Source of the DNA: Lachnospiraceae bacterium | GTDB lineage: Bacteria > Bacillota > Clostridia > Lachnospirales > Lachnospiraceae | Length of the DNA: 48,783 nt | Assembly: GCA_011959285.1 (NCBI GenBank) | Contig: BLLW01000025.1 | Location: 1 to 48,783 of the forward strand | Direction of reading: 5' to 3' | Shown here: positions 37,510 through 48,278 of the stretch, piece after piece | Layout: each line of letters begins with the position of its first letter | Position numbering within the stretch: the first letter of the stretch is position 1 | Notes under the pieces: generated by a model | Told to the model about the DNA's origin: nothing | Databases searched by the model: none | What the model saw: only the letters and a program-made list of their open reading frames with translations | Translations under genes and position numbers: made by a program

Positions 37510-37532
37510 CATAAAAAATGGAGGGATTTATT

Positions 37533-38120
37533 ATGCATATGTTAAAAGACACAAAATCACTGGCTGTTACCGCTCTGATGGCAGCGTTTACCTGTATCGC
37601 CACCATGAGCATCCGGATTCCTACCCCCACCCTCGGCTACATACATCCCGGGGACTGTCTGGTACTGCTTTGCGGCGTAATCTTAGGACCCGTTGCCGGT
37701 TTTCTCGCGGCCGGGATTGGTTCCATGTTCGCAGATATTTTATCGGGATATATTATCTATGCCATTCCAACCCTCATTATCAAAGGCGTCACAGCACTTA
37801 TTGCCGCCGTGCTCTTCCGAAGGCTGAAGCAGATATGGAACGCAAATCATTCCTTCCTTTTTATCGCCGCCGGAATCCCCGCTGAGCTGAACATGGTTTT
37901 CGGTTATTTTGCGAACAAAATCATCCAGACCATGTTTCTTGCCGGAAGCTGCAATTCCGAGACCTTTGCCACAGGATTTGCAAGCGCTCTTACCGGTATT
38001 TTTACGAATTGCGTACAAGGCGCTGCCGGCGTTGTTTTAGGCATGCTGCTGCTCCCTGTTCTGTCACAGATACCGGACGTGCGCCTCTGGCTGACTCCAA
38101 AAACACGGAAGAGTTTATAG
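37533..38120 (+). CDS. ECF transporter S component (substrate unknown)
   Basis: 195 residues and about five or six membrane helices, with the S-component start (SLAVTALMAAFTCIATMSIR) and GDCLVLLCGVILGPVAGFLA typical of COG4720-like S components. These membrane proteins bind a vitamin or micronutrient and pair with a shared EcfAA'T module encoded elsewhere. The substrate cannot be told. The ATG at 37533 has GGAGG eight bases upstream. Its stop TAG at 38118-38120 touches the converging ADP-ribosylglycohydrolase stop at 38115-38117. Confidence 0.87.
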   Translation: MHMLKDTKSLAVTALMAAFTCIATMSIRIPTPTLGYIHPGDCLVLLCGVILGPVAGFLAAGIGSMFADILSGYIIYAIPTLIIKGVTALIAAVLFRRLKQIWNANHSFLFIAAGIPAELNMVFGYFANKIIQTMFLAGSCNSETFATGFASALTGIFTNCVQGAAGVVLGMLLLPVLSQIPDVRLWLTPKTRKSL

Positions 38121-39509
38121 AAATTTCCTGTATGCTGCCACAGTTTCTTCCGTCAATTCTTCTATCGTAAATGTTTCTCTTCCATATAGATAAGTGGACA
38201 GTTCCCCCGAAACCGGAGCTGTCCATTTTGGGTCGATGTGGTCTATCCCGGTAATGATTGCCGCTGCCGTCAAAAGTTGTGCCGCCGTACAGTCCGCATC
38301 ATACCCTTCCAGACATATGATTTCAAGCATCTTCTCAAAATCATTATCGCCGAACCAGATTGCAACCACCTCTGCCGCCGCATTAGGATAGGCATGTACC
38401 CATGTGTATTCCTTTAATTCCTCAAGACACGTCTCCCACGCAGTCCGCCAGTTATCAGACCGTGCACAGATATCCATAGTATTCTTGATAACACCGGCAT
38501 ATTCAGAATTTTCCGGCAGCATGTCCGCCGTCTTTTTCAGCACCCTGCGTATATCCTGTTCCGCGTAAGCACATGAAACCAAAAGCGCGCTGAATACCTC
38601 TCCAATGATTCCATTGTTTGCATGAGAAATCTGACCGTCTATCCATGCCAGCCGTGCCGCCTCAAAAGGATCCGCTGGCGCCAACATTCCGCATATGGCC
38701 CCGCGCATCTGAGCGCCGATCCATTCGCAATAAAAGTTACCGGTCCGCCCGCTTTCCGGCGGGTAAATCCCCTGCTTTAAATTTCTCATAGCGACCCCTT
38801 CTGCACTCATCCCAAAGGGGATCAACGAAAGCCACTCATGTGCGATATCCTTAGAAGTAAGCTCTCTTCCTCGTTTTTTGTATGCTTCCAGGAAAGCAAT
38901 TTCGTAGGTGATATCATCATTGTAGACAGAAGGCGTCTTTAAATATCCGCTAAACTCCTGAAGGTTCCTGGCAATTTCTTCATAATGATACCCTTCTAAC
39001 TGAGACCCTGCCGTACCGCCAATGATCTGTCCGTACCAGCCCGCCCTGGTTTTCCTTACATACGCTTCCTCCGTTATAGACCTGCGGGGCATCCATTTTG
39101 TCACTGCCCCGCAGTATGCCTGCCACGTCTCTATTTTCTGAAACTTCCTATATTTATGATCAGAATCTTCCTTTGCGCAGTACAGGCACCGATGAATTTC
39201 ACTGGTGATTACGCGCAGCCTTTTCCAATTCTTTTTTTCTAATGCTTCAAGACCTGCTTCCATTAGGCGCTCAGCTTCTTCTACTATATATCCCATAGAT
39301 TTCATGCTGGCAATTGCTCCACAGATTCCGCTAAGTCCACTTGCCCCCGAAGAAGGCAGCACCACTCCCATCCACTGACGATGCAAAAGCGCTTCCTCCT
39401 TTTGCGGGCATGGAATCAAGTCATTCCACATCTTGTCTGCCTGCTCCTTTTTAGGAACAGACAGCCTGCTGCTTTTTAGAACCTTTAAATGATATTCGTA
39501 TGCATCCAT
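38115..39509 (-). CDS. ADP-ribosylglycohydrolase-family protein
   Basis: 464 residues. Residues 1-145 form a helical N-terminal extension; residues about 150-464 are the ARH fold with RKTRAGWYGQIIGGTAGSQL, metal-binding YNDDITYEIAF, WIDGQISHANNGIIGEVFSA, and GYDADCTAAQLLTAAAIITG (the last is the conserved D-x-D/T-type ligand pair). ARH enzymes use two Mg ions to cleave ADP-ribose from proteins or small molecules. It is the last gene of a nucleoside uptake operon, so the natural substrate may be a small riboside. ATG 39509 has AAAGGA upstream. Confidence 0.88.
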   Translation of the reverse strand: MDAYEYHLKVLKSSRLSVPKKEQADKMWNDLIPCPQKEEALLHRQWMGVVLPSSGASGLSGICGAIASMKSMGYIVEEAERLMEAGLEALEKKNWKRLRVITSEIHRCLYCAKEDSDHKYRKFQKIETWQAYCGAVTKWMPRRSITEEAYVRKTRAGWYGQIIGGTAGSQLEGYHYEEIARNLQEFSGYLKTPSVYNDDITYEIAFLEAYKKRGRELTSKDIAHEWLSLIPFGMSAEGVAMRNLKQGIYPPESGRTGNFYCEWIGAQMRGAICGMLAPADPFEAARLAWIDGQISHANNGIIGEVFSALLVSCAYAEQDIRRVLKKTADMLPENSEYAGVIKNTMDICARSDNWRTAWETCLEELKEYTWVHAYPNAAAEVVAIWFGDNDFEKMLEIICLEGYDADCTAAQLLTAAAIITGIDHIDPKWTAPVSGELSTYLYGRETFTIEELTEETVAAYRKFL

Positions 39510-39519
39510 GATGTTCCTT

Positions 39520-40467
39520 TCACCCTTTTTCATTCAGCCGGATAAATTCTTCAATCTCTTTGGCAGAAGGCATTGATTTCTGCGCCCCTTTCCTGTTCAC
39601 TGACAATCCGCTTGCGTAATTGGCATAGCGGACCGCATCGAAAAAGCTATCTCCTTTTTCAAGTCTTGTACAAAAAGCGCCTGCAAATGTATCTCCCGCT
39701 GCAGTTGTATCCACAACAGGAATTTCTATGGCAGGAACCAAAATCTCTCTTTCCCCGTCTGTTGCGTAAACACCCTGTCCGCCCATCTTGACAATTACAT
39801 TCTTTACGCCCTTTTTTAGGAAAAAGTCTGCCGCTTTTCTGGCACTTTCTTCATCCGTCACCTTGATTCCAGACAACATCTCCGCCTCGATTGCATTGGG
39901 CGAAATATAGTCCAGCATTTCGTATGTACTTTCCGGCAGACCCTGAGGCGGAACCGGCGCCGGATCAAGAAATGCCGCAATGTTATGTTCTTTTGCATAA
40001 GCGATTGTCCGGGTGACACATTCTATGGGAATTTCCAGCTGCAACATGACAATCTTCAGATTCTCCAATCGATCAAGCGCTTCTAAAATCTCATCCTCTT
40101 TGACGCTTCTGTTCGCACCAGGACAGACAATGATGCTGTTTTGCGCCTGACTGTCCAGCACAATAATTGCAATTCCGGTCGTATTTTCTTTATCTGTACC
40201 AATGCCTTCCGTATTGACACTCTGCTCTTTCAGCGCCTTTTTAATAATTTCACCGTTGATATCATCGCCTACCCTGCCGATCATCTGGACGCTGCCTCCA
40301 ATCCTCCCGGCGGCATACGCCTGATTGGCGCCTTTTCCTCCCGAGGTGATCAATACATCATTTGCCAGAATCGTTTCGCCTGCCACCGGTCTTTTATCCA
40401 GCATGACAGAATAATCCATGTTCAAGCTTCCCACTACTGCAATTTTAATATGTTTTGCCTCTGGCAT
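39520..40467 (-). CDS. rbsK: Ribokinase
   Basis: 315 residues of PfkB fold. Substrate motif VVGSLNMDYSVMLDKRPVAG then GGKGANQAYAAGRIGG; catalytic motif DTTAAGDTFAGAF with the base Asp. It phosphorylates ribose to ribose-5-phosphate using ATP. It sits between the nucleoside hydrolase and ADP-ribosylglycohydrolase genes in one operon, so ribose released by hydrolysis is the likely substrate. A second ribokinase-like domain lies in the divergent regulator fusion. Confidence 0.95.
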   Translation of the reverse strand: MPEAKHIKIAVVGSLNMDYSVMLDKRPVAGETILANDVLITSGGKGANQAYAAGRIGGSVQMIGRVGDDINGEIIKKALKEQSVNTEGIGTDKENTTGIAIIVLDSQAQNSIIVCPGANRSVKEDEILEALDRLENLKIVMLQLEIPIECVTRTIAYAKEHNIAAFLDPAPVPPQGLPESTYEMLDYISPNAIEAEMLSGIKVTDEESARKAADFFLKKGVKNVIVKMGGQGVYATDGEREILVPAIEIPVVDTTAAGDTFAGAFCTRLEKGDSFFDAVRYANYASGLSVNRKGAQKSMPSAKEIEEFIRLNEKG

Positions 40468-40486: not shown

Positions 40487-41437
40487 TCAACCTAAACTGG
40501 CAATCGCCGAAACCATCATGTCCCAAAACAACTCAAAGTTCAGTTTATCGCCCACATAAACATTGGGCTCTTTCAATTCCCTTCCGGAATTCATGCGGAA
40601 AACATCAATACATGTCATGCCGTAAGTAAACTCCCCTTTTGTCTCAATATCCACCCTGAGATGTTTCGTTGTAAACACATTCCGGTCAATCAAATACGCA
40701 ACACAGCACGCATCATTTACAGGCGCTCCGTTCTTCCCTGCCCGCTTTGAATGATCGTTGTAAAAAGTCATAAAGTCATTCACAAAATCACTTACCGGAG
40801 AATGAATCTCCTGAATCCTTTTCATCACTTCCGGCGTGGCAACTGCCTGATAGGTCAGGTCAATCCCGCACATGACCTTGGGAATTTCACTTTCAAACAA
40901 AATACGCGCCGCTTCCGCATCGCTCCAGATATTAAACTCTGCTGCCGGGGTGATGTTGCCAAATCTTCCGCCTCCCATAATCACCAACTGTTTTATCTTT
41001 GCCCCAATTGCAGGTTCCTTCCTCAGTGCAAGCGCAACATTGGTCAAAGGACCAGCCGCCACAATGGAAATGTCTCCCTCCGATTCCATTAAAGTGTCAA
41101 TCAAAAAATCGCATGCATGTTTTTCAATCGGCTTTCTTTTCGGCTCAAACAATTTTGCCCCGTCCAGCCCCGACTCGCCATGCACGAAAGGCGCAGTATA
41201 AAGAGGTTTTACCAAAGGCGCACTGCAGCCGGCAGCCACCGGAATATCTGCACCAATGATATCCATCGTAATCAGCGCATTTCTTGTGGTCATTTCCAAA
41301 GGAGCGTTTCCCGCAACGGTGGTCACACCCAGCAAATCTATTTTCGGACTTCCCGCCGCCAGCAGAATTGCCATCACATCGTCATGTCCCGGGTCACCGT
41401 CATATATCATTTTTACTTTTGTATCACTGCCTTCCAT
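40487..41437 (-). CDS. Nucleoside hydrolase (IunH family)
   Basis: 317 residues. The calcium-binding signature DGDPGHDDVMAI is near the N-terminus, with VTTVAGNAPLEMTTRN and FNIWSDAEAARILFES. The C-terminal motif reads APVNDACCVAYLID, where most members have His before the Ca-binding Asp; here it is Asn, which may alter the substrate. It cleaves the N-glycosidic bond of nucleosides to ribose plus base. AAAGGAGG precedes ATG 41437. Upstream transporter and downstream ribokinase fit nucleoside uptake and breakdown. Confidence 0.93.
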   Translation of the reverse strand: MEGSDTKVKMIYDGDPGHDDVMAILLAAGSPKIDLLGVTTVAGNAPLEMTTRNALITMDIIGADIPVAAGCSAPLVKPLYTAPFVHGESGLDGAKLFEPKRKPIEKHACDFLIDTLMESEGDISIVAAGPLTNVALALRKEPAIGAKIKQLVIMGGGRFGNITPAAEFNIWSDAEAARILFESEIPKVMCGIDLTYQAVATPEVMKRIQEIHSPVSDFVNDFMTFYNDHSKRAGKNGAPVNDACCVAYLIDRNVFTTKHLRVDIETKGEFTYGMTCIDVFRMNSGRELKEPNVYVGDKLNFELFWDMMVSAIASLG

Positions 41438-41461
41438 CATCATCCTCCTTTCCTGCCCCTT

Positions 41462-42394
41462 TTATTTTACCGGAGCCATCATCTTTCTGTTATTCTGCAG
41501 CACATGGATTGCCAGCATCAATATCGTAACCGCATAAGGAATCGCCTGAATAAACTGGCTGGGAATCGACAATCCCGGATAAGTTTCAATCAAAATTGCA
41601 ATGGCATTGGCAAACCCAAAAATCAAACCGCCACGCAGGACGCCATACGGTCTTGCATTCCCAAGGCTGATCACCGCCAAAGCAATAAAACCGTTACCTG
41701 CCGTCATGTCCCTCACAAACATGCTGGTCGTTCCTGTGGAAAGAAAGGCACCTCCTATCCCGCAAAGGACACCGCAGATCACAAAGGCGGAATATTTTAT
41801 TTTCAAGTCATTGATGCCCACGCTCCTTGCCGCCTGCACATTTTCGCCCACAGCAATCAGATGTGCCCCCATAGGCGTCTTATAAAAAACAATGCTGCAA
41901 AGAACGACACACAAGAAAGCGATCCACACGATCAAGCTGTGTCCGCTGATCACGGAAAGTATGGGAATGTCTTCAATAACCGGGATATTCACCACCGGTA
42001 TCATTGCAACTTCCTCCGGCTGGTATGACCCTGATGAACCAAAAAAAGTCTGCAGCAAAAAGACCGTTATGGCGGAAGCAAAGGTATTGATGGCAAACCC
42101 CGTCACAATATGATGCGCCTTATACTTAAACGTAAAGAATGCCAGCATAAGACATAGGAACACGCTTGCCGCGCACCCCGCCAGTATCCCTAAGAACCAA
42201 TTCCCCGTCAAAGCGTTTATCACAATGGAAAAAAATGCCGATACAAGCATGGCTCCTTCCAGTCCGATGTTCATTACGCCCACTTTTCCGCAAAACAATC
42301 CGCCTATCGCCGCTAAGATCACAGGGGCTACCAGCTTAAACACAATTGAAAAAACCGATAAATTTAAGATCTGTTGAAAAAAGAAACTAGCCAC
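41462..42394 (-). CDS. ABC transporter permease (NupQ/YufQ-type)
   Basis: 310 residues with about 8-10 helices, belonging to the BPD_transp_2 family: GKVGVMNIGLEGAMLVSAFF, ITGFAINTFASAITVFLLQT-like, and ALAVISLGNARPYGVLRGGL. With the other permease it forms the membrane channel of a BMP-type importer. GTG at 42394 is the start: AGGAGG lies nine bases upstream. It overlaps the restored end of the upstream permease by eight bases. Confidence 0.93.
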   Translation of the reverse strand: MASFFFQQILNLSVFSIVFKLVAPVILAAIGGLFCGKVGVMNIGLEGAMLVSAFFSIVINALTGNWFLGILAGCAASVFLCLMLAFFTFKYKAHHIVTGFAINTFASAITVFLLQTFFGSSGSYQPEEVAMIPVVNIPVIEDIPILSVISGHSLIVWIAFLCVVLCSIVFYKTPMGAHLIAVGENVQAARSVGINDLKIKYSAFVICGVLCGIGGAFLSTGTTSMFVRDMTAGNGFIALAVISLGNARPYGVLRGGLIFGFANAIAILIETYPGLSIPSQFIQAIPYAVTILMLAIHVLQNNRKMMAPVK

Positions 42395-43444
42395 TCTTTT
42401 TAACCTCCTTTGCAAATTTTCTCTTATTCAGATAAGGAGTAAGCATTCTCGATGAAATCAGCATAATCATAATGACCTGTATGATGAGCACCAGTTCCCG
42501 GGACACATCTGTATTCTGCTGCATAATCTGTCCGCCCACTTTTAAATAGGCAAAAAGAAGCTGATCAGTAAAACTCCTACAGGATGGTTGGATGCCAAAA
42601 GTGCGATGATTAGCCCGTCTCCGCCCATTCCGCTTGCAAAATCATCAAAGAAGGATCTGTGCATCCCAAGCACTTCCACAGAGCCGGAAAGTCCGGCAAG
42701 CCCGCCGCTGACAGCAAAGCAAAAAACGGTAATCAGCTTAATGTTCAACCCTCCATATTGGGCAAAAACCCTGTTCTTTCCCACTGTTTCCATACGATAT
42801 CCAAAAATGCTGTGTTTCATTAAAAAGTAAACCAGAACCACCATCGCCAGCGCAATCAAGAATCCAGCATGTGCTGTGATCAGTGAAGAAATTTCCTTTA
42901 ATTCCAGATATTCCGGTATGTAGCGCATCCTGATGACCCCGCCGCTGTCCGGATCCCTAAAGTAAGAATTGGTCATTCCCGATGTCACCAGCGTTGCAAT
43001 ATAATTCAGCATCAGAGTGGTCACAACTTCGTTAATATTAAAGTAAGCTTTCAAGACGCCTGCCACAATTGCATAAATGACGCCCCCGCCCACTGCCGCT
43101 ATAAAAACTGCCACCACGTGCAGTCCCTTAGGAAGTCCGATCAGATAATTGCCCGCTATTGCCGCCATAAACGCGCCTACATAAAACTGCCCCTGCACCC
43201 CCATGTTAAAAAGTCCGGTCTTAAAAGCCACAGATGCAGAAAGCCCTACCAATATAAGCGGCGTCACTTTATTGATAATATTATTCATATAGAATGTATT
43301 GGACAGCGGCAGCACAAGAAGACTTTTTATTGCCAAAAAAGGTTCGTCCGAGACCAGCAAGATCAAAAGACATCCCAGCAGCACGGCAATCACAATAGAC
43401 AATACAGTAGATAACATATTCGTGTTCTTTAATTTCTGCTTCAT
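42387..43444 (-). pseudogene. ABC transporter permease (NupP/YufP-type), frameshifted near 3' end
   Basis: The frame from ATG 43444 gives 300 residues and stops at TAA 42544-42542, cutting off the last helix. One base after the T5 run (A5 at 42552-42556 on the plus strand) the alternate frame continues with FAYLKVGGQIMQQN and ends at TAG 42389-42387; adding one T gives a 352-residue protein, the family's usual length, that overlaps the next start by eight bases as in an intact operon. It may be a mutation, a sequencing or assembly error, or recoding. GGAGG precedes ATG 43444. Family motifs: KTGLFNMGVQGQFYVGAF, EVVTTLMLNYIATLVTSG. Confidence 0.85.
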
Positions 43445-43445
43445 C

Positions 43446-44993
43446 CTATTCCTCCGTCCCGCTCTGATCCTGACGCCCGTTCAGGATATATTTTCCTATT
43501 TCGTTTTCGGTTATCGTATCATCATTATCCCGGATTGCCACCAGTTCTCCATCATAAAGCATCCCAATCCGATCGCTTAGCCCCATAATTTCTGTAAGTT
43601 CCGCCGAAATCAAGAGGACTGCGGCTCCCTCATTGCGTTGTTCTATGATTTTATTGTGAATATACTCAATGGACGAAACATCCACTCCCCTCGTAGGCTG
43701 ACAGGCTATCAGCAGATCCGGTTTCTTACTGATTTCCCGCGCCACGATGACTTTCTGAATGTTTCCGCCTGACATAGAACCCACCAAAGCGGTTTCCCCG
43801 TCTGTCTTAATCTCATATTCCCCGATTAAGTGTCTGGCCTCTTCTTTGACCTCCTTCCAGTTCAAAAAAGGTCCCTTGTTAAATTCTCCGCCGCTGTGAG
43901 AACAGATAATGAAATTTTCAGCTACAGATTGGTTAAGGCTCGAACCTCGCAGGTTGCGGTCGTCAGGAATATATCCGATGGATTCTCTTCTAAAATCAGC
44001 TGTACTGACTCCTGTTATGTCTTTTCCGTCATAAAACACCTTGCCCGACGCAGGTTTCAAAAAGCCGATGATTGCGTCAATGAGCTCAGACTGCCCGTTT
44101 CCTTCCACTCCGGCAATTCCGAATATTTCCCCCTCTTTAATGGAGAAAGACATATCCTTGATCTTCAGCGCCCCTCTCCTGTCCATGACATTCAGATGGG
44201 CAACCTCAAAAATCGTTTTTTCTCTTTGCCGTTCCACCCGCTCTCTCTTAGGCTTTAACTGCCTGCCGATCATCAGACGCGTTATCTCGTCCGGGTTCGT
44301 CTCGCTTGTTTTTAAGGTCTTGATCGTCTGTCCGTTCCTCAGCACAGTGACAGAATCTGAGATGTCCATCACCTCTTTTATCTTATGGGTAATTAAAACA
44401 ATGGTATAGCCGTCCTTCACCATCAGGCGCAGCGAACAGAATAACTCTTCTGTCTCCTGCGGCGTCAGCACTGCCGTGGGCTCGTCCAATATAATAATCT
44501 TGGCATTGTTATACAGTACTTTCAGAATCTCAATCCGCTGTTTCGCCCCCACCGACAAGCGGTAGACCGGCTCGTCAAAATCCGCCGTCAGACCAAATTG
44601 CTTTGAAATCTTTTCCATCTGCTCCTTTTCCGCCTTCCGGTCGCAGAAAATCTTTTTCTTTTTTTCATTGCCAAGAGCGATATTCTGCGCCACCGTATAA
44701 GAGGGAACCAGCATAAACTCCTGATGTACCATCCCCATACCGCTGGCGATTGCTTCTCTTGGACTTTTAAAGTTCACTTCTTTTCCGGAAATATAAACTG
44801 CTCCCTTCGTCTTTTCCTCCAATCCGAAGAGCACTTTCATCAAAGTCGTTTTCCCCGCTCCGTTTTCTCCCACCAGAGCGTGAATCTCTCCCCGCTTTAC
44901 ACGGAAATTAACGCCGCTGTTTGCCACCGTGCCGTTGGGATAGATTTTATACATATCTTTCATTTCAATTACATATTGAGTATCCGCTCCCAT
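43446..44993 (-). CDS. ABC transporter ATP-binding protein (two ABC domains)
   Basis: 515 residues with two ABC modules. The first has Walker A GENGAGKTTLMKVL, signature LSVGAKQRIEI and Walker B IIILDEPTAVLTP. The second has the degenerate Walker A GVEGNGQSELIDAI and signature MSGGNIQKVIVAREI, followed by LLIACQPTRGVD. This is the RbsA/NupO layout that powers nucleoside import with one active and one degenerate site. GGGAGG precedes the ATG. It starts 55 bases after the binding-protein gene, separated by a stable hairpin. Confidence 0.96.
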   Translation of the reverse strand: MGADTQYVIEMKDMYKIYPNGTVANSGVNFRVKRGEIHALVGENGAGKTTLMKVLFGLEEKTKGAVYISGKEVNFKSPREAIASGMGMVHQEFMLVPSYTVAQNIALGNEKKKKIFCDRKAEKEQMEKISKQFGLTADFDEPVYRLSVGAKQRIEILKVLYNNAKIIILDEPTAVLTPQETEELFCSLRLMVKDGYTIVLITHKIKEVMDISDSVTVLRNGQTIKTLKTSETNPDEITRLMIGRQLKPKRERVERQREKTIFEVAHLNVMDRRGALKIKDMSFSIKEGEIFGIAGVEGNGQSELIDAIIGFLKPASGKVFYDGKDITGVSTADFRRESIGYIPDDRNLRGSSLNQSVAENFIICSHSGGEFNKGPFLNWKEVKEEARHLIGEYEIKTDGETALVGSMSGGNIQKVIVAREISKKPDLLIACQPTRGVDVSSIEYIHNKIIEQRNEGAAVLLISAELTEIMGLSDRIGMLYDGELVAIRDNDDTITENEIGKYILNGRQDQSGTEE

Positions 44994-45048: not shown

Positions 45049-46083
45049 TTAATACAGTTCAGATTTAACCTCGATTTCTCCATTCATCAAAGCTGTCGTA
45101 ATCTTTTCCATTTCCTGTTTGATAGAATCGGGGACATACTGCTCATACAATTCATCCGTGGCAAGACCAATACAATTCTCTTTGATTCCCCACAATTGAG
45201 AAGTTCCCATTTCAAGCTCCCCCTTCTGATACAGTTCGATTGCATTGTAGATACCGGTTCCGCTGGTCTTAAGCATGGAAGTCAGCACGCTTCCCGGATA
45301 AATCCCATTTTGGTTGATATCGACGCCGATGGTGTATTTCCCTGCCTCATTGCCGGCTTCCAGCGTTCCAAGCCCGGCACTTGCTCCTACGTTAAAAATA
45401 ATATCCGCATTCTGTGAATTATACATTGCCATAGCAAGCTCTTTTGCCTTCGGCGCATTGACAGCGTCTCCCACATAAGATTTTAAAACTTCGATTTCGC
45501 TGTCCACATAATGAGCGCCCTGCTCATATCCATCATAGAAGTCATTGATTGTAGGGGAATCCATTACTCCTATAAAACCAATCACTTTATCAGGATTGCT
45601 GCCTTCAAGCTCTGTACTTGTAGTTACCAGCGCCGCAAATGCCCCTGCAAGGAAAGAGCCTTCACACTGATTGTACATGGCATTGAATATGTTGGGTCTG
45701 ACTTCCGTCATAGTCGTATCCATTACAAAAAAGTCCTGCTCAGGATACTTGTCCGCCAGTTCCAGGACAATATCGCTGGTCTTTCCTGTCAATGTGACAA
45801 TTATGTCATACTCTCCGCTGACTGCCAGCGCCTCGATTGCCGGCTGATAATCCGCCTGATCGGAACCGCCTTCAATGAGTTTCGCCTTGACGCCCAATTC
45901 CTTTTCCGCCCTAAGAACACCTTCCTTGTTTCCATCAAAATAAGCATTATCTCCAAAACTGCCATTTGCATAAAAAACAACGCTAAGCGTTTCCTTCTCC
46001 TCAGATTCCTTCTTCCCGCACCCTGTCATCAATGTCGCTGCCAAAATCACTGCTGTCAAAAGCAAAGTACCAAGTCTTTTCAT
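45049..46083 (-). CDS. BMP-family nucleoside-binding lipoprotein
   Basis: 344 residues. Signal peptide with lipobox LMTGC (Cys22). The PnrA/BmpA-type periplasmic-binding fold has VVFYANGSFGDNAYFDGN, VIGFIGVMDSPTINDFYDGY, and GVDINQNGIYPGSVLTSMLK. BMP family members bind purine nucleosides, with conserved Asp and Phe residues clamping the ribose. Start at ATG 46083, with GGGAGG nine bases upstream. First gene of the import operon. Confidence 0.94.
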   Translation of the reverse strand: MKRLGTLLLTAVILAATLMTGCGKKESEEKETLSVVFYANGSFGDNAYFDGNKEGVLRAEKELGVKAKLIEGGSDQADYQPAIEALAVSGEYDIIVTLTGKTSDIVLELADKYPEQDFFVMDTTMTEVRPNIFNAMYNQCEGSFLAGAFAALVTTSTELEGSNPDKVIGFIGVMDSPTINDFYDGYEQGAHYVDSEIEVLKSYVGDAVNAPKAKELAMAMYNSQNADIIFNVGASAGLGTLEAGNEAGKYTIGVDINQNGIYPGSVLTSMLKTSGTGIYNAIELYQKGELEMGTSQLWGIKENCIGLATDELYEQYVPDSIKQEMEKITTALMNGEIEVKSELY

Positions 46084-46223
46084 CTTTTCCGCCCTCCCGG
46101 TTTTTGTTTGTAAAATTTTCATTGTTTCAGAGTAAATCTTTTTGCCAAACCGCAATCCTCCTGCCCGCTCCTCCTCTCTTTTGTTAATGAAACTATTTTT
46201 CTAAAATGTTTTCCTATGCAATA

Positions 46224-46252
46224 ATGATACAGCGGCATATTATATTTGTCAA
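46224..46252 (-). promoter_or_regulatory. Sigma-A promoter of the nucleoside operon
   Basis: Minus strand: TTGACA (46252-46247), 17 bases, TATCAT (46229-46224). Its -35 lies inside an inverted repeat (46244-46273), so a repressor there would block transcription. Confidence 0.82.
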
Positions 46253-46276
46253 TAGTTTTATATATTGCCAAATATA
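46244..46276. promoter_or_regulatory. Candidate LacI-type operators over the nucleoside-operon promoter
   Basis: ATTTGTCAATA (46244-46254) and TATTGCCAAAT (46263-46273) form an 11-bp inverted repeat with one mismatch and an 8-base spacer. The right half lies within an imperfect 16-base palindrome (TATATT-GCCA-AATATA, 46261-46276). The overlap with the -35 suggests repression by the divergent LacI-like fusion protein. Confidence 0.55.
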
Positions 46277-46296
46277 CACAATAATATCTTATTTTT

Positions 46297-46323
46297 ATTA
46301 TGCACTTTGTACATTTGCATAAT
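46297..46323. promoter_or_regulatory. Inverted repeat upstream of the fusion gene promoter
   Basis: ATTATGCA (46297-46304) and TGCATAAT (46316-46323), perfectly complementary, with an 11-base spacer, ending eight bases before the -35 of the regulator promoter. It may be an additional operator site or a hairpin-forming sequence. Confidence 0.5.
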
Positions 46324-46331
46324 CCTGGTTA

Positions 46332-46360
46332 TTGACAGATATTTCTTTCTGTTACATAAT
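46332..46360 (+). promoter_or_regulatory. Sigma-A promoter of the LacI-PfkB fusion gene
   Basis: TTGACA (46332-46337), 17 bases, CATAAT (46355-46360); the ATG at 46383 follows after an AAAGGAG site. Confidence 0.85.
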
Positions 46361-46382: not shown

Positions 46383-48278
46383 ATGACAATCAAAGAAATT
46401 GCTGCGCTTGCCGGCGTATCCGTATCTACCGTTTCCAAAATCATGAATGGCAAGGATGGGAACATCAATCCGGCGACCCGCAGCCGGGTTTTAAAAATTG
46501 CAAAGGAACATCACTACGAGCCTTACAGCACCATCAAGAATATCACGGCTCCCAAAAAATTTCTCATAGGTCTGTTGTTAAATTCTTTCTGTTCCTCAAA
46601 CAGGATGATAGAAGGGGTGTTGGAAACTGCCCAAAAATGCGGCTACCAGCTTCTCATTTTTAATAGCATTCATTCTCTTTCCCAGGAATTAAAGCATATC
46701 ACAGCACTCTGCAACAGCAGAGTAGACGGCGTAATCTGGGAACCTGTCAGCGGTCAGAGCACAGAATACGAACATTTTTTTTCCAAACAGAATATTCCTG
46801 TCTGTTATATAAATGCCCCGGATGATATTCCATCCTACTCCATCGATTTTGTAAAAGCCGGTTATGCCATGACAAAGGAATTAATCGATCAGAAGCATAC
46901 TCGCATTACCTGCCTGCTTCAGGAAGGCGATCCCATATCCTCCATGATTCTGGAAGGCTTTCAAAAATGCTTGTATGATTATAAAATTGCCTTTGAAAAA
47001 CAGCAGATTTTATATTCTCCTATCGATAATTGCTATACTTCCCTTATTGCCCACGGGATAACCGGCGTTATAAGCGCTTATTATTCCCACGCGCTTATGC
47101 TATATGAGCAGTTGGTAAATCTGCATTATTATATCCCCTCTTCCCTATCCTTAGTCAGCCTAAGCGATACGGAAGAATACGCCCATTATCCTCATATTTC
47201 CTGTATACAGGTTCCTTATCATGAATTTGGGCGCCATGTATGCGAAGCGCTGATCCTGCAATGCGAGAAATCTCCTCAAAGCAGCCCTCCTTCGCTGTTT
47301 ACACCTGCGTATACGCTTACACACAAAAAAAGCATCCGCATCCCTTCCTTTCTGCGCATGAAGAAGCTGGTGGTGGCAGGCAGTATCCACATGGACCTGA
47401 CCTTCATTGTAAACCGCCTTCCGCAGGCAGGTAAAACTACCGAAATCCTCACCTCCGTCATTTCAGTAGGAGGCAAAGGCGTCAATCAGTCGGTAGGGGC
47501 GGCGAAACTTGGACGTGAAGTGTCCCTGATTGGAAAGTTGGGAAATGATTTTGACTCAAGTCTGATTTTAAATACATTAGAAAAGGAGCATGTGACAGCC
47601 CACGGAATCTACAGGGATATGAATGTGCCCACAGGCAAGGCATATATTTATACGGGGGAGGATGGAGAAAGCACTATTACCGTCCTTTCCGGCGCAAACC
47701 AGAATCTCACGCCGGAAGATATTCGGAAGCAGGAGCACCTTTTTGCCAATGCGGGCTTCTGCCTTCTCTCAACCGAGATTCCTGTGGACGCCATTATAGA
47801 AGCCGCAAGGATCGCGCATTCATCTGACGTAAAAGTCATTTTAAAGCCTGCCGTCCTGCAGACCATTCCCGACGAGCTTCTTGCCCTGACCGATATTTTC
47901 ATTCCAAATCAAAAAGAAGCTGCGACCCTTTGCCCTCACGAAGACTCCGCTGAAAAACAGGCAGAATATTTTTTGCAAAAAGGAGCCGCAGCCGTTATCA
48001 TAACCTTAGGTCACAAAGGATGTTATTTAAAGAATAAAGAAGAGGCACATTTCTTTCCGGCAGAAAATTTTGCATCCATCGACACTACTGGCGGCGCCGA
48101 TGCTTTCATCTGTGCGCTTGCCTCCTATCTGACCGAAGGATATCCAATCTGCAAGGCAATACGCATAGCCTCATACGCCGCCGGCTTTTGTGTATCCCGT
48201 CAGGGCGTCGTATCCGCCCTTGTAGACCGAAGCACACTGGAAACATATATCACCCAGCATGACCCGTCGCTTTTATAG
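46383..48278 (+). CDS. LacI-type repressor fused to a PfkB (ribokinase-like) kinase
   Basis: 631 residues in one frame. Residues 1-50 are a LacI helix-turn-helix (MTIKEIAALAGVSVSTVSKI). Residues about 55-300 are a periplasmic-binding-protein-like sensor (FLIGLLLNSF, SRVDGVIWEPVSG, ITGVISAYYSHALMLYEQ). From Met326 a full PfkB kinase follows: VVAGSIHMDLTFIVNRLPQA, ISVGGKGVNQSVGAAKLG, and DTTGGADAFICALAS with catalytic-base candidate Asp573. The usual GAGD is GGAD here, so activity needs testing. AAAGGAG precedes the ATG. Probably regulates the divergent nucleoside operon and phosphorylates or senses its sugar. Confidence 0.9.
   Translation: MTIKEIAALAGVSVSTVSKIMNGKDGNINPATRSRVLKIAKEHHYEPYSTIKNITAPKKFLIGLLLNSFCSSNRMIEGVLETAQKCGYQLLIFNSIHSLSQELKHITALCNSRVDGVIWEPVSGQSTEYEHFFSKQNIPVCYINAPDDIPSYSIDFVKAGYAMTKELIDQKHTRITCLLQEGDPISSMILEGFQKCLYDYKIAFEKQQILYSPIDNCYTSLIAHGITGVISAYYSHALMLYEQLVNLHYYIPSSLSLVSLSDTEEYAHYPHISCIQVPYHEFGRHVCEALILQCEKSPQSSPPSLFTPAYTLTHKKSIRIPSFLRMKKLVVAGSIHMDLTFIVNRLPQAGKTTEILTSVISVGGKGVNQSVGAAKLGREVSLIGKLGNDFDSSLILNTLEKEHVTAHGIYRDMNVPTGKAYIYTGEDGESTITVLSGANQNLTPEDIRKQEHLFANAGFCLLSTEIPVDAIIEAARIAHSSDVKVILKPAVLQTIPDELLALTDIFIPNQKEAATLCPHEDSAEKQAEYFLQKGAAAVIITLGHKGCYLKNKEEAHFFPAENFASIDTTGGADAFICALASYLTEGYPICKAIRIASYAAGFCVSRQGVVSALVDRSTLETYITQHDPSLL

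Follow-up and report, generated by a model that had tools for sequence, protein, structure and literature searches.

A LacI-type repressor joined to a ribokinase-like kinase beside a nucleoside operon in Lachnospiraceae

The fused gene and the divergent operon

Contig BLLW01000025.1 of a Lachnospiraceae bacterium (NCBI GenBank assembly GCA_011959285.1) carries a gene in which a LacI-type transcriptional repressor and a ribokinase-like (PfkB) kinase are joined in one protein. The stretch of 48,783 nucleotides that was analysed is termed the window. The gene is a single open frame on the forward strand, which begins with an ATG at 46383, with AAAGGAGAA just ahead of it, and ends with a stop at 48278. 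It encodes 631 amino acids and has no internal stop. Seven Pfam families match the protein at an expect value (E) of 0.001, namely LacI, three periplasmic-binding models, PfkB, Phos_pyr_kin and HTH_3. A first-pass annotation of this DNA had described a complete LacI repressor and a complete PfkB kinase in one stop-free frame, and the open frame and the domain scores above their Pfam cut-offs agree with that description (Table 1). In a scan of the window's own genome, the LacI helix-turn-helix of the fusion scores 60.5 bits.

AlphaFold models are confident except at the hinge, both for the whole protein (mean predicted local distance difference test, pLDDT, 87.8; predicted template modelling score, pTM, 0.61) and for the LacI half alone (pLDDT 87.1, pTM 0.82). 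The low pTM of the whole protein means that the mutual arrangement of the two halves is not fixed by the model. In Foldseek comparisons, the LacI half matches CcpA, RbsR, PurR and LacI at TM-scores of about 0.6–0.7. The kinase half matches E. coli ribokinase (1rkd) at a TM-score of 0.94 by target length and 1.6 Å.

Divergent from the fused gene lies an operon for nucleoside import and hydrolysis that has its own ribokinase. This layout, too, is as first annotated, and it is supported by gene order, by Pfam matches and by TIGR02152, the ribokinase equivalog model. Under a second ribokinase model, PRK11142, the operon ribokinase scores 291.7 against a cut-off of 341. The S-component of an energy-coupling factor (ECF) transporter, of riboflavin type by Pfam, adjoins the operon on the opposite strand (37518–38120).

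Table 1. Coordinates of the fused gene, its predicted control sites and the divergent operon in the window
Feature	Position	Strand	Basis
Fused repressor-kinase gene	46383..48278	+	Open frame and Pfam domains
LacI-type helix-turn-helix, residues 2-47	46386..46523	+	PF00356, 55.6 bits, cut-off 27
Hinge segment, about residues 48-60	46524..46562	+	Canonical N..AR.L not kept; low-confidence coil in both models
LacI-type periplasmic-binding-like sensor domain	46563..47342	+	PF13377 (Peripla_BP_3, residues 165-317, 49 bits, cut-off 26.5); residue counts; fold matches to LacI-family structures
Ribokinase-like PfkB domain, residues 326-631	47358..48275	+	PF00294 (residues 326-612, 190 bits, cut-off 25.8); fold match 1rkd
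Lys488 codon, place of E. coli RbsK Asn166	47844..47846	+	Clade-specific; Lys in 36/36 fused, 0/100 standalone
Anion-hole motif Gly-Gly-Ala-Asp, residues 570-573	48090..48101	+	Ala572 in place of RbsK Gly254; Asp573 at catalytic-base position
Candidate shared operator	46186..46215		Motif discovery, leave-one-out scan, genome pattern search, genus conservation, L188
Predicted nucleoside-operon promoter, TTGACA-17-TATCAT	46224..46252	-	Consensus scan; part conserved in genus relatives
Predicted fusion-gene promoter, TTGACA-17-CATAAT	46332..46360	+	Consensus scan; TTGACA and CATAAT conserved in genus relatives
BMP/PnrA-like substrate-binding protein, first gene of divergent operon	45049..46155	-	PF02608
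ATP-binding cassette (ABC) transporter ATPase	43446..44993	-	PF00005
Two permeases (BPD_transp_2)	41462..43444	-	PF02653
Nucleoside hydrolase	40487..41443	-	PF01156, 326 bits
Standalone canonical ribokinase	39520..40467	-	TIGR02152, 331.3 bits, above cut-off 299.65
ADP-ribosylglycohydrolase-family protein, end of operon	38115..39533	-	PF03747

Distribution and origin of the fusion

In all, 45 distinct fused proteins were gathered, among which seven pairs exceed 90% identity. Thirty-six of them were examined in full, and the counts per fused row or locus given below refer to these. Eight fusions from the genus (L180–L187) and one from a plasmid (L188) were gathered later and stand outside the 36-row counts. 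A second stop-free fusion lies in the window's own genome (C35:13220-15091, locus L053), and a genome of the same genus carries a fusion with 82% identity to the window protein. Other fusions are about 30–57% identical to it and are spread over many genera. With a second copy in the same genome and open frames in relatives, the fusion is genuine, and neither a chance arrangement nor an assembly slip.

Scoring was limited to 8, 3 and 3 candidates per genome in the family, order and phylum samples, respectively, so their counts are lower bounds. In the family sample, at least 11 of 150 genomes match at E 1e-60, and at least 10 stop-free fused frames were found, own genome included; one of these (L052) is truncated by a contig end, and another fusion (L026) starts at one. 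At least 21 of the 392 order genomes match at E 1e-55, with at least 18 fused frames and three that have stops between the halves. The phylum sample yielded at least 7 matches in 398 genomes, comprising the own genome as the only fused one, three adjacent pairs with stops and three kinase-only matches. Within the genus, 9 of 37 genomes match at E 1e-50, every one with an open frame. The named collection added at least 8 further fusions among its 80 kept loci; these come from metagenome-assembled genomes of Dorea, Blautia, Ruminococcus and Lachnospiraceae (two), from Schaedlerella arabinosiphila (L087) and Clostridium porci, and from the complete genome of Treponema parvum. In the plasmid collection 17 records match. 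Among those listed, two Enterococcus raffinosus records align full-length in one piece at 40% identity, and the other eight are annotated as separate LacI and rbsK genes. The Enterococcus record that was examined (plasmid p1_Er676, 1.14 Mb; L188) contains a single fused frame of 647 amino acids. The question of how widespread such fusions are, which had been left open when the gene was first annotated, thus has a partial answer: occurrence of the fusion across the window's order is patchy, and Treponema parvum and Enterococcus raffinosus are outliers. The Enterococcus copy likely reflects lateral transfer to Bacilli.

Separate trees were made of the two halves, both of them quick trees without bootstraps and with some long rows. 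The kinase-half tree (88 rows) took in E. coli RbsK and 49 of the 100 standalone kinases described in the next section, and the LacI-half tree has 56 rows. In each tree the fused proteins lie on one side of a branch with a Shimodaira-Hasegawa-like approximate likelihood ratio (SH-aLRT) value of 99. The two trees fit what is likely a history in which one old fusion was inherited, lost in a patchy manner and in some cases passed on by lateral transfer. Unfused LacI and ribokinase neighbours also exist (L074–L079, L114 and L138).

Two copies (L080:8114-10083 and L050:2616-4554) are split into two frames at or beside single-base runs. The separate overlapping frames of L080 and the second copy at L050 were considered as ancestors from before the fusion and rejected, since both lie inside the fused clade, L080 in the kinase and LacI trees and the L050 copy in the kinase tree. 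Given this position and the breaks at single-base runs, they are read as decayed or mis-sequenced fusions. The operon beside the second fusion of the own genome (L053, C35:3500-23400) looks eroded. Its ribokinase lacks the middle, its ABC transporter and ADP-ribosylglycohydrolase genes are fragmented, and the fusion itself is free of stops. An adjoining gene resembles nicotinate phosphoribosyltransferase, a label that comes from reading its translation.

The gene partners seen in the window recur at other fused loci. A separate ribokinase is found at 24 of the 36, a nucleoside hydrolase at 20 (16 by BLAST and 4 more by Pfam) and a BMP-type substrate-binding protein at 15. At least one of the three is present in 29 of the 36 fetched stretches, which vary in length and have no background frequency for comparison. 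The Treponema parvum locus holds an importer, hydrolases and a ribokinase. The Enterococcus locus holds a hydrolase, a ribokinase and genes resembling an ECF-type importer, a label that derives from BLAST to an ABC protein and from gene order. A relative of the ADP-ribosylglycohydrolase gene is present at 7 of the 36 loci, the window included.

Altered residues and a candidate operator

Kinase residues are labelled here by E. coli RbsK numbering, and their roles are presumed from work on ribokinase. The residues D16, G41, G42, K43, N46, E143, N187, E190 and D249 are kept in all 36 fused rows. At two other positions the fused proteins depart from standalone kinases. N166 is replaced by Lys in 36 of 36 rows; among 100 standalone kinases the residue at this place is Asn in 81, Asp in 18 and Val in 1. 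In the model this lysine, Lys488, is the last residue of a strand that lies in sequence between the E143 and N187 equivalents, and it should thus face the active site. G254, in the anion hole, is Gly in 100 of 100 standalone kinases, but 34 of 36 fused rows have Ala, Ser or Cys in its place. The nine fusions gathered later all have Lys-Pro at the first site and Ala or Ser at 254.

The standalone set consists of 23 kinases from neighbour loci and 77 from loci of the named collection. Those loci had been retrieved by means of the patterns A[GNQ]VSxSTVSK and D[TSN]TG[AG][AG]D[AS]F. Three positions, D249, G252 and D255, are fixed in the second pattern, and 253 and 254 can only be Ala or Gly, which biases the standalone counts at the fixed positions. 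Ala at 254 was permitted by the pattern, yet it is absent from the standalone kinases.

For adenosine kinase, a DTNGAG anion hole and a catalytic Asp are described in the available text of PMC6086891. The window fusion reads DTTGGADAF, the same in its translation and in the residue alignment and just as first annotated. Its anion hole is GGAD in place of GAGD or AAGD, with the catalytic base D255 kept. In addition, the fused kinase scores 259.2 bits under TIGR02152, below the cut-off that the operon ribokinase passes. By sequence, a protein of PfkB fold therefore falls outside ribokinase on both tests run, the equivalog score and the anion-hole motif. The suggestion made at first annotation that the kinase half is altered or purely a sensor may hold, with Gly254 gone in nearly all fused rows. 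One fusion (L055:8703-10670) reads DTTGAAN, with the catalytic Asp changed to Asn, and is a natural candidate for a dead kinase.

The LacI half also departs from its relatives. It was compared with 19 LacI proteins, 11 of which came from neighbour loci. The other 8 are those extracted by pattern from among the 14 non-fusion LacI genes of the own genome. R197 and D274 (LacI labels) are what we take to be canonical effector contacts, R197 touching the sugar. An R197-like Arg is found in 0 of 36 fused rows, all of which have a hydrophobic residue or Cys there, and in 18 of 19 comparison proteins. A D274-like Asp is found in 1 of 36 and in 18 of 19, respectively. The hinge motif N..AR.L and its helix are likewise not kept: the hinge Asn is present in 0 of 36 fused rows and 15 of 19 comparison proteins, and the hinge Leu in 6 of 36 and 12 of 19. 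The usual mode of sugar sensing by the LacI half, which had been assumed when the gene was first annotated, is thus not borne out, as the fused clade has largely lost the canonical effector contacts. The co-repressor of CcpA is a protein, as given in the available text of a comparative LacI regulon study (PMC4052901). In the alignment CcpA has partly lost the same contacts, which makes their loss compatible with a LacI-type protein whose cleft does not serve to sense sugar.

Drift of the sensor domain points in the same direction. Pairs of loci at 35–50% kinase identity were compared, namely 42 pairs from 11 fused loci that share their operon type and 21 pairs from seven unfused LacI-ribokinase loci. 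Mean sensor identity is 24% (28% when re-aligned pairwise) for fused and 37% (38%) for unfused pairs, in ranges that overlap (11–41% and 29–48%) and from pairs that are few and not independent. Identity over the helix-turn-helix plus hinge is alike, 54% in fused and 50% in unfused pairs. The lower sensor identity at similar helix-turn-helix identity suggests drift in the sensor and not in the whole LacI half. When all fused pairs in the same kinase band are taken (449 pairs), the sensor mean is 22%.

A candidate operator is shared by the fused loci. Unsupervised motif search covered 260 bases upstream at 36 loci, comprising 35 fusions and the split L080; L026 was too short and was left out. 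It gave a strong single motif, TAGGAAAATATTTTCCTAAATCATTTTCTT-like, with a 24-base model sum of 607–617 against 397–409 in 8 Markov shuffles. A leave-one-out model was then built from 21 hand-chosen sites of the 36, with the tested locus and its near copies excluded. With this model, 27 of 37 loci have the best site of their whole stretch (3–49 kb) upstream of the fusion. The Enterococcus fusion, held out of training, is preceded by a site that scores 31.5 and is the clearest copy, with two tandem palindromes, GGAAAACGTTTTCC and GAAAATGTTTTC, 13 bp apart centre to centre. These are GAAAA-nn-TTTTC-like and of LacI type. In the window, the site at 46186–46215 is the sole match with up to three mismatches (0.17 expected). 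The pattern GAAANNNTTTTYYTAAANNNTTTTC was composed to fit the window's own site and matches exactly once in the own genome of 4.23 Mb; two further matches with 2 mismatches are at chance level, because a control pattern gave 5 hits. The operator is conserved in genomes whose fusions have 82% and 55% protein identity to that of the window.

A consensus scan of 301 bases gave five promoter-like sites, against 1.9 expected. The candidate operator lies just downstream of the -10 element of the operon's predicted promoter, a position typical of repressors that prevent transcription from starting. The first-pass annotation had placed the operator within 46244–46323. This region was rejected in favour of 46186–46215, where motif search, leave-one-out scan and conservation agree. 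Its proposal that the protein represses the divergent operon is likely, given a shared predicted operator at the predicted promoter of that operon. At two other loci, a second operator-like site (L069:17857, scoring 15.1, and L071:17848, scoring 13.5) lies about 210–235 bases upstream of a gene of about 200 amino acids, which is a possible further member of the regulon.

Proposed mechanism and relation to known systems

Taken together, the sequence comparisons lead us to favour, at about even confidence, a local repressor in which sensing has shifted from the LacI domain to a weakened or inactive kinase domain. The fusion would be a dedicated repressor of the divergent operon for nucleoside import, hydrolysis and ribose phosphorylation. 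Its LacI helix-turn-helix would bind the tandem operator, which would overlie the start of the operon transcript, and transcription would be blocked. The kinase half would still bind adenosine triphosphate (ATP) and a ribose-type sugar, either free ribose or the ribose part released from nucleosides. With the altered anion hole and the active-site lysine, phosphate transfer would be slow or absent, so that the ligand would remain bound for long enough to serve as a signal. As the kinase lid closed on this ligand, with or without nucleotide, the movement would be passed through the degenerate LacI sensor, kept as a dimer and lever scaffold, and DNA would be released. The normal ribokinase next door would do the metabolic work. 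Retained binding residues together with loss of the anion-hole Gly fit a ligand-binding site with poor turnover, and a normal ribokinase nearby makes a second metabolic copy unnecessary. Of the interpretation first given to this gene, the fused protein, its likely role as operon repressor and the altered kinase or sensor remain; sugar sensing by the LacI half in the usual way and the location of the operator do not.

Several observations weigh against a repressor that senses through its kinase half. N14, presumably a sugar contact in ribokinase, is kept in 34 of 36 rows. The window and L063 have His instead, so that the sugar site of the window protein is not completely conserved. The catalytic base D255 is kept in 35 of 36 rows, which a pseudokinase need not do, two fusions (L064 and L065) keep the full GAGD, and the active-site Lys could instead aid catalysis. 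On the LacI side, an Asp one place past the D274 column is present in 23 of 36 fused rows (10 of 19 comparison proteins), so a shift of one residue could hide a kept Asp. An N246-like Asn is present in 5 of 36 fused rows and 13 of 19 comparison proteins, and the LacI sensor domain might hold a new pocket. The overlap of the sensor identities and the fitting of the genome pattern to the window count here as well.

The operator is also not universal. At ten of 37 loci the best site falls outside the region scanned upstream of the fusion. Two of them have strong upstream sites and a stronger one before another operon (L050, 26.6; L065, 32.0), the best site of L063 (31.9) lies one base beyond the distance limit, and that of L067 precedes a neighbouring operon. 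In the leave-one-out scan, no good site was found upstream of the fusion at L026, L052, L053, L055, L059 and L073. Among the 27 loci that do have their best site there, three sites are weak and little above background, at L056 (11.0), L087 (12.2) and L086 of Treponema (15.8, next best 13.5). No operator precedes the paralogous fusion on C35, where the best site of the stretch (17.9) lies elsewhere, nor does one lie upstream of its relatives L183–L186. Moreover, ribokinase, hydrolase and BMP protein are all missing from the stretch at 7 of 36 loci (L026, a contig of 3.2 kb, and L052, L055, L059, L061, L067 and L085). Some of these, and also L083, adjoin AP_endonuc_2, MocA-type oxidoreductase or alpha-L-arabinofuranosidase genes. 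The ligand or the regulated sugar may therefore differ between members of the clade. The fusions at L083:8136-9656 and L067:4209-6076 lie beside arabinofuranosidase or MocA/xylose-isomerase-like genes.

Four alternatives can be set against kinase-half sensing with poor turnover. The first is a bifunctional trigger enzyme of the NadR type, in which a working sugar or nucleoside kinase is retained and expression depends on flux through it, not simply on binding. A precedent for combining a repressor with a nucleoside kinase is NadR, as described in the available text of PMC12421817, and the near-universal catalytic base and the full retention of the listed sugar and ATP residues would suit an active enzyme. 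It is unlikely, however, as the anion-hole Gly is gone in 34 of 36 rows and a canonical ribokinase near 24 of 36 loci makes a second active copy superfluous for metabolism. A second alternative is that Lys488 makes the kinase pocket bind a phosphorylated sugar, ribose-5-phosphate or ribose-1-phosphate, produced by the neighbouring enzymes. The lysine is invariant in the fused rows and sits at a strand end between the E143 and N187 equivalents, and the neighbouring ribokinase would supply the phosphate. Such a product sensor is rather improbable, since the residues of the ATP site are also kept and a pure product sensor would not need them.

A plain fusion of rbsR-rbsK-type neighbours, which would join an ordinary sugar-sensing repressor to an ordinary ribokinase, is very improbable: the unfused neighbours make prior adjacency plausible, but the LacI half has not retained the canonical effector contacts or hinge, 34 of 36 rows have an altered kinase motif and a normal ribokinase lies near 24 of 36 loci. 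Finally, two products from one frame, or a sequencing artefact, can practically be dismissed, and a second product from an internal start at Met326 was rejected: Met does begin the kinase half in the window, but no Shine-Dalgarno-like stretch was found before it by reading the sequence, as first annotated, the Met is missing from the other 27 of 27 aligned fused rows, and the same open frame occurs in many genomes.

If kinase-half sensing is correct, the fused proteins may form a distinct class of repressors, a proposal that we make tentatively and at slightly less than even confidence. In this class, recognition of the effector would have moved to a ribokinase-like domain that is crippled in transfer and retains its ligand site, with the LacI sensor as a scaffold. 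Its members would be found across the window's order and, as outliers, in Treponema and on a plasmid of Enterococcus. The textbook gene switch is a LacI-family repressor, and in the conserved branch described here a former enzyme has apparently taken the place of the sensor, the old one remaining in the protein. The 45 fused proteins offer a natural series for how an enzyme becomes a sensor, together with a concrete operator to test. The fusion also likely serves to control the use of nucleosides, probably in bacteria of the gut.

The LacI-PfkB architecture is probably listed in domain databases. No description of a LacI-PfkB or repressor-ribokinase fusion was found in the available part of the open-licence PubMed Central literature. 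The comparative LacI regulon study describes LacI factors as two-domain proteins, and the terms "fused", "fusion" and "kinase domain" are absent from its main text as far as available (PMC4052901).

Like the LacI/GalR repressors RbsR, CcpA and PurR, the fusion has an N-terminal LacI helix-turn-helix, a periplasmic-binding-like fold, pseudo-palindromic predicted operator elements and probable local control of a sugar or nucleoside operon. Unlike them, it has a C-terminal kinase, does not keep the hinge and effector contacts, and in Enterococcus has two predicted operator elements in tandem. With ribokinase RbsK it shares the PfkB fold and most sugar- and ATP-binding residues, and it differs in the Lys at N166, the loss of Gly254, the score under the equivalog cut-off and the attached repressor.

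The helix-turn-helix and kinase folds of NadR differ from those of the fusion. The NadR-type architecture of helix-turn-helix, adenylyltransferase and ribosylnicotinamide kinase is likewise absent from the Pfam matches of the fusion. NadR of Enterobacterales does combine a repressor and ribosylnicotinamide kinase in one chain, but it acts in nicotinamide adenine dinucleotide (NAD) metabolism with active enzymes (PMC12421817, available text). The rbsR-rbsK ribose operons and the uridine operon of Corynebacterium glutamicum resemble the present system in having a local repressor, a ribokinase, an importer and a nucleoside hydrolase, though as separate genes with ordinary domains (PMC3146418, available text). 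In Corynebacteria the uridine regulator, UriR, belongs to the LacI family (PMC4052901, available text).

Judged from its sequence, the fusion is a LacI-type repressor by its DNA-binding domain and fold, and not by its hinge or effector contacts. The ROK repressors NagC and Mlc resemble it in having a fold of sugar-kinase type as the sensor on a DNA-binding protein, and differ from it in having another kinase fold and no LacI domain.

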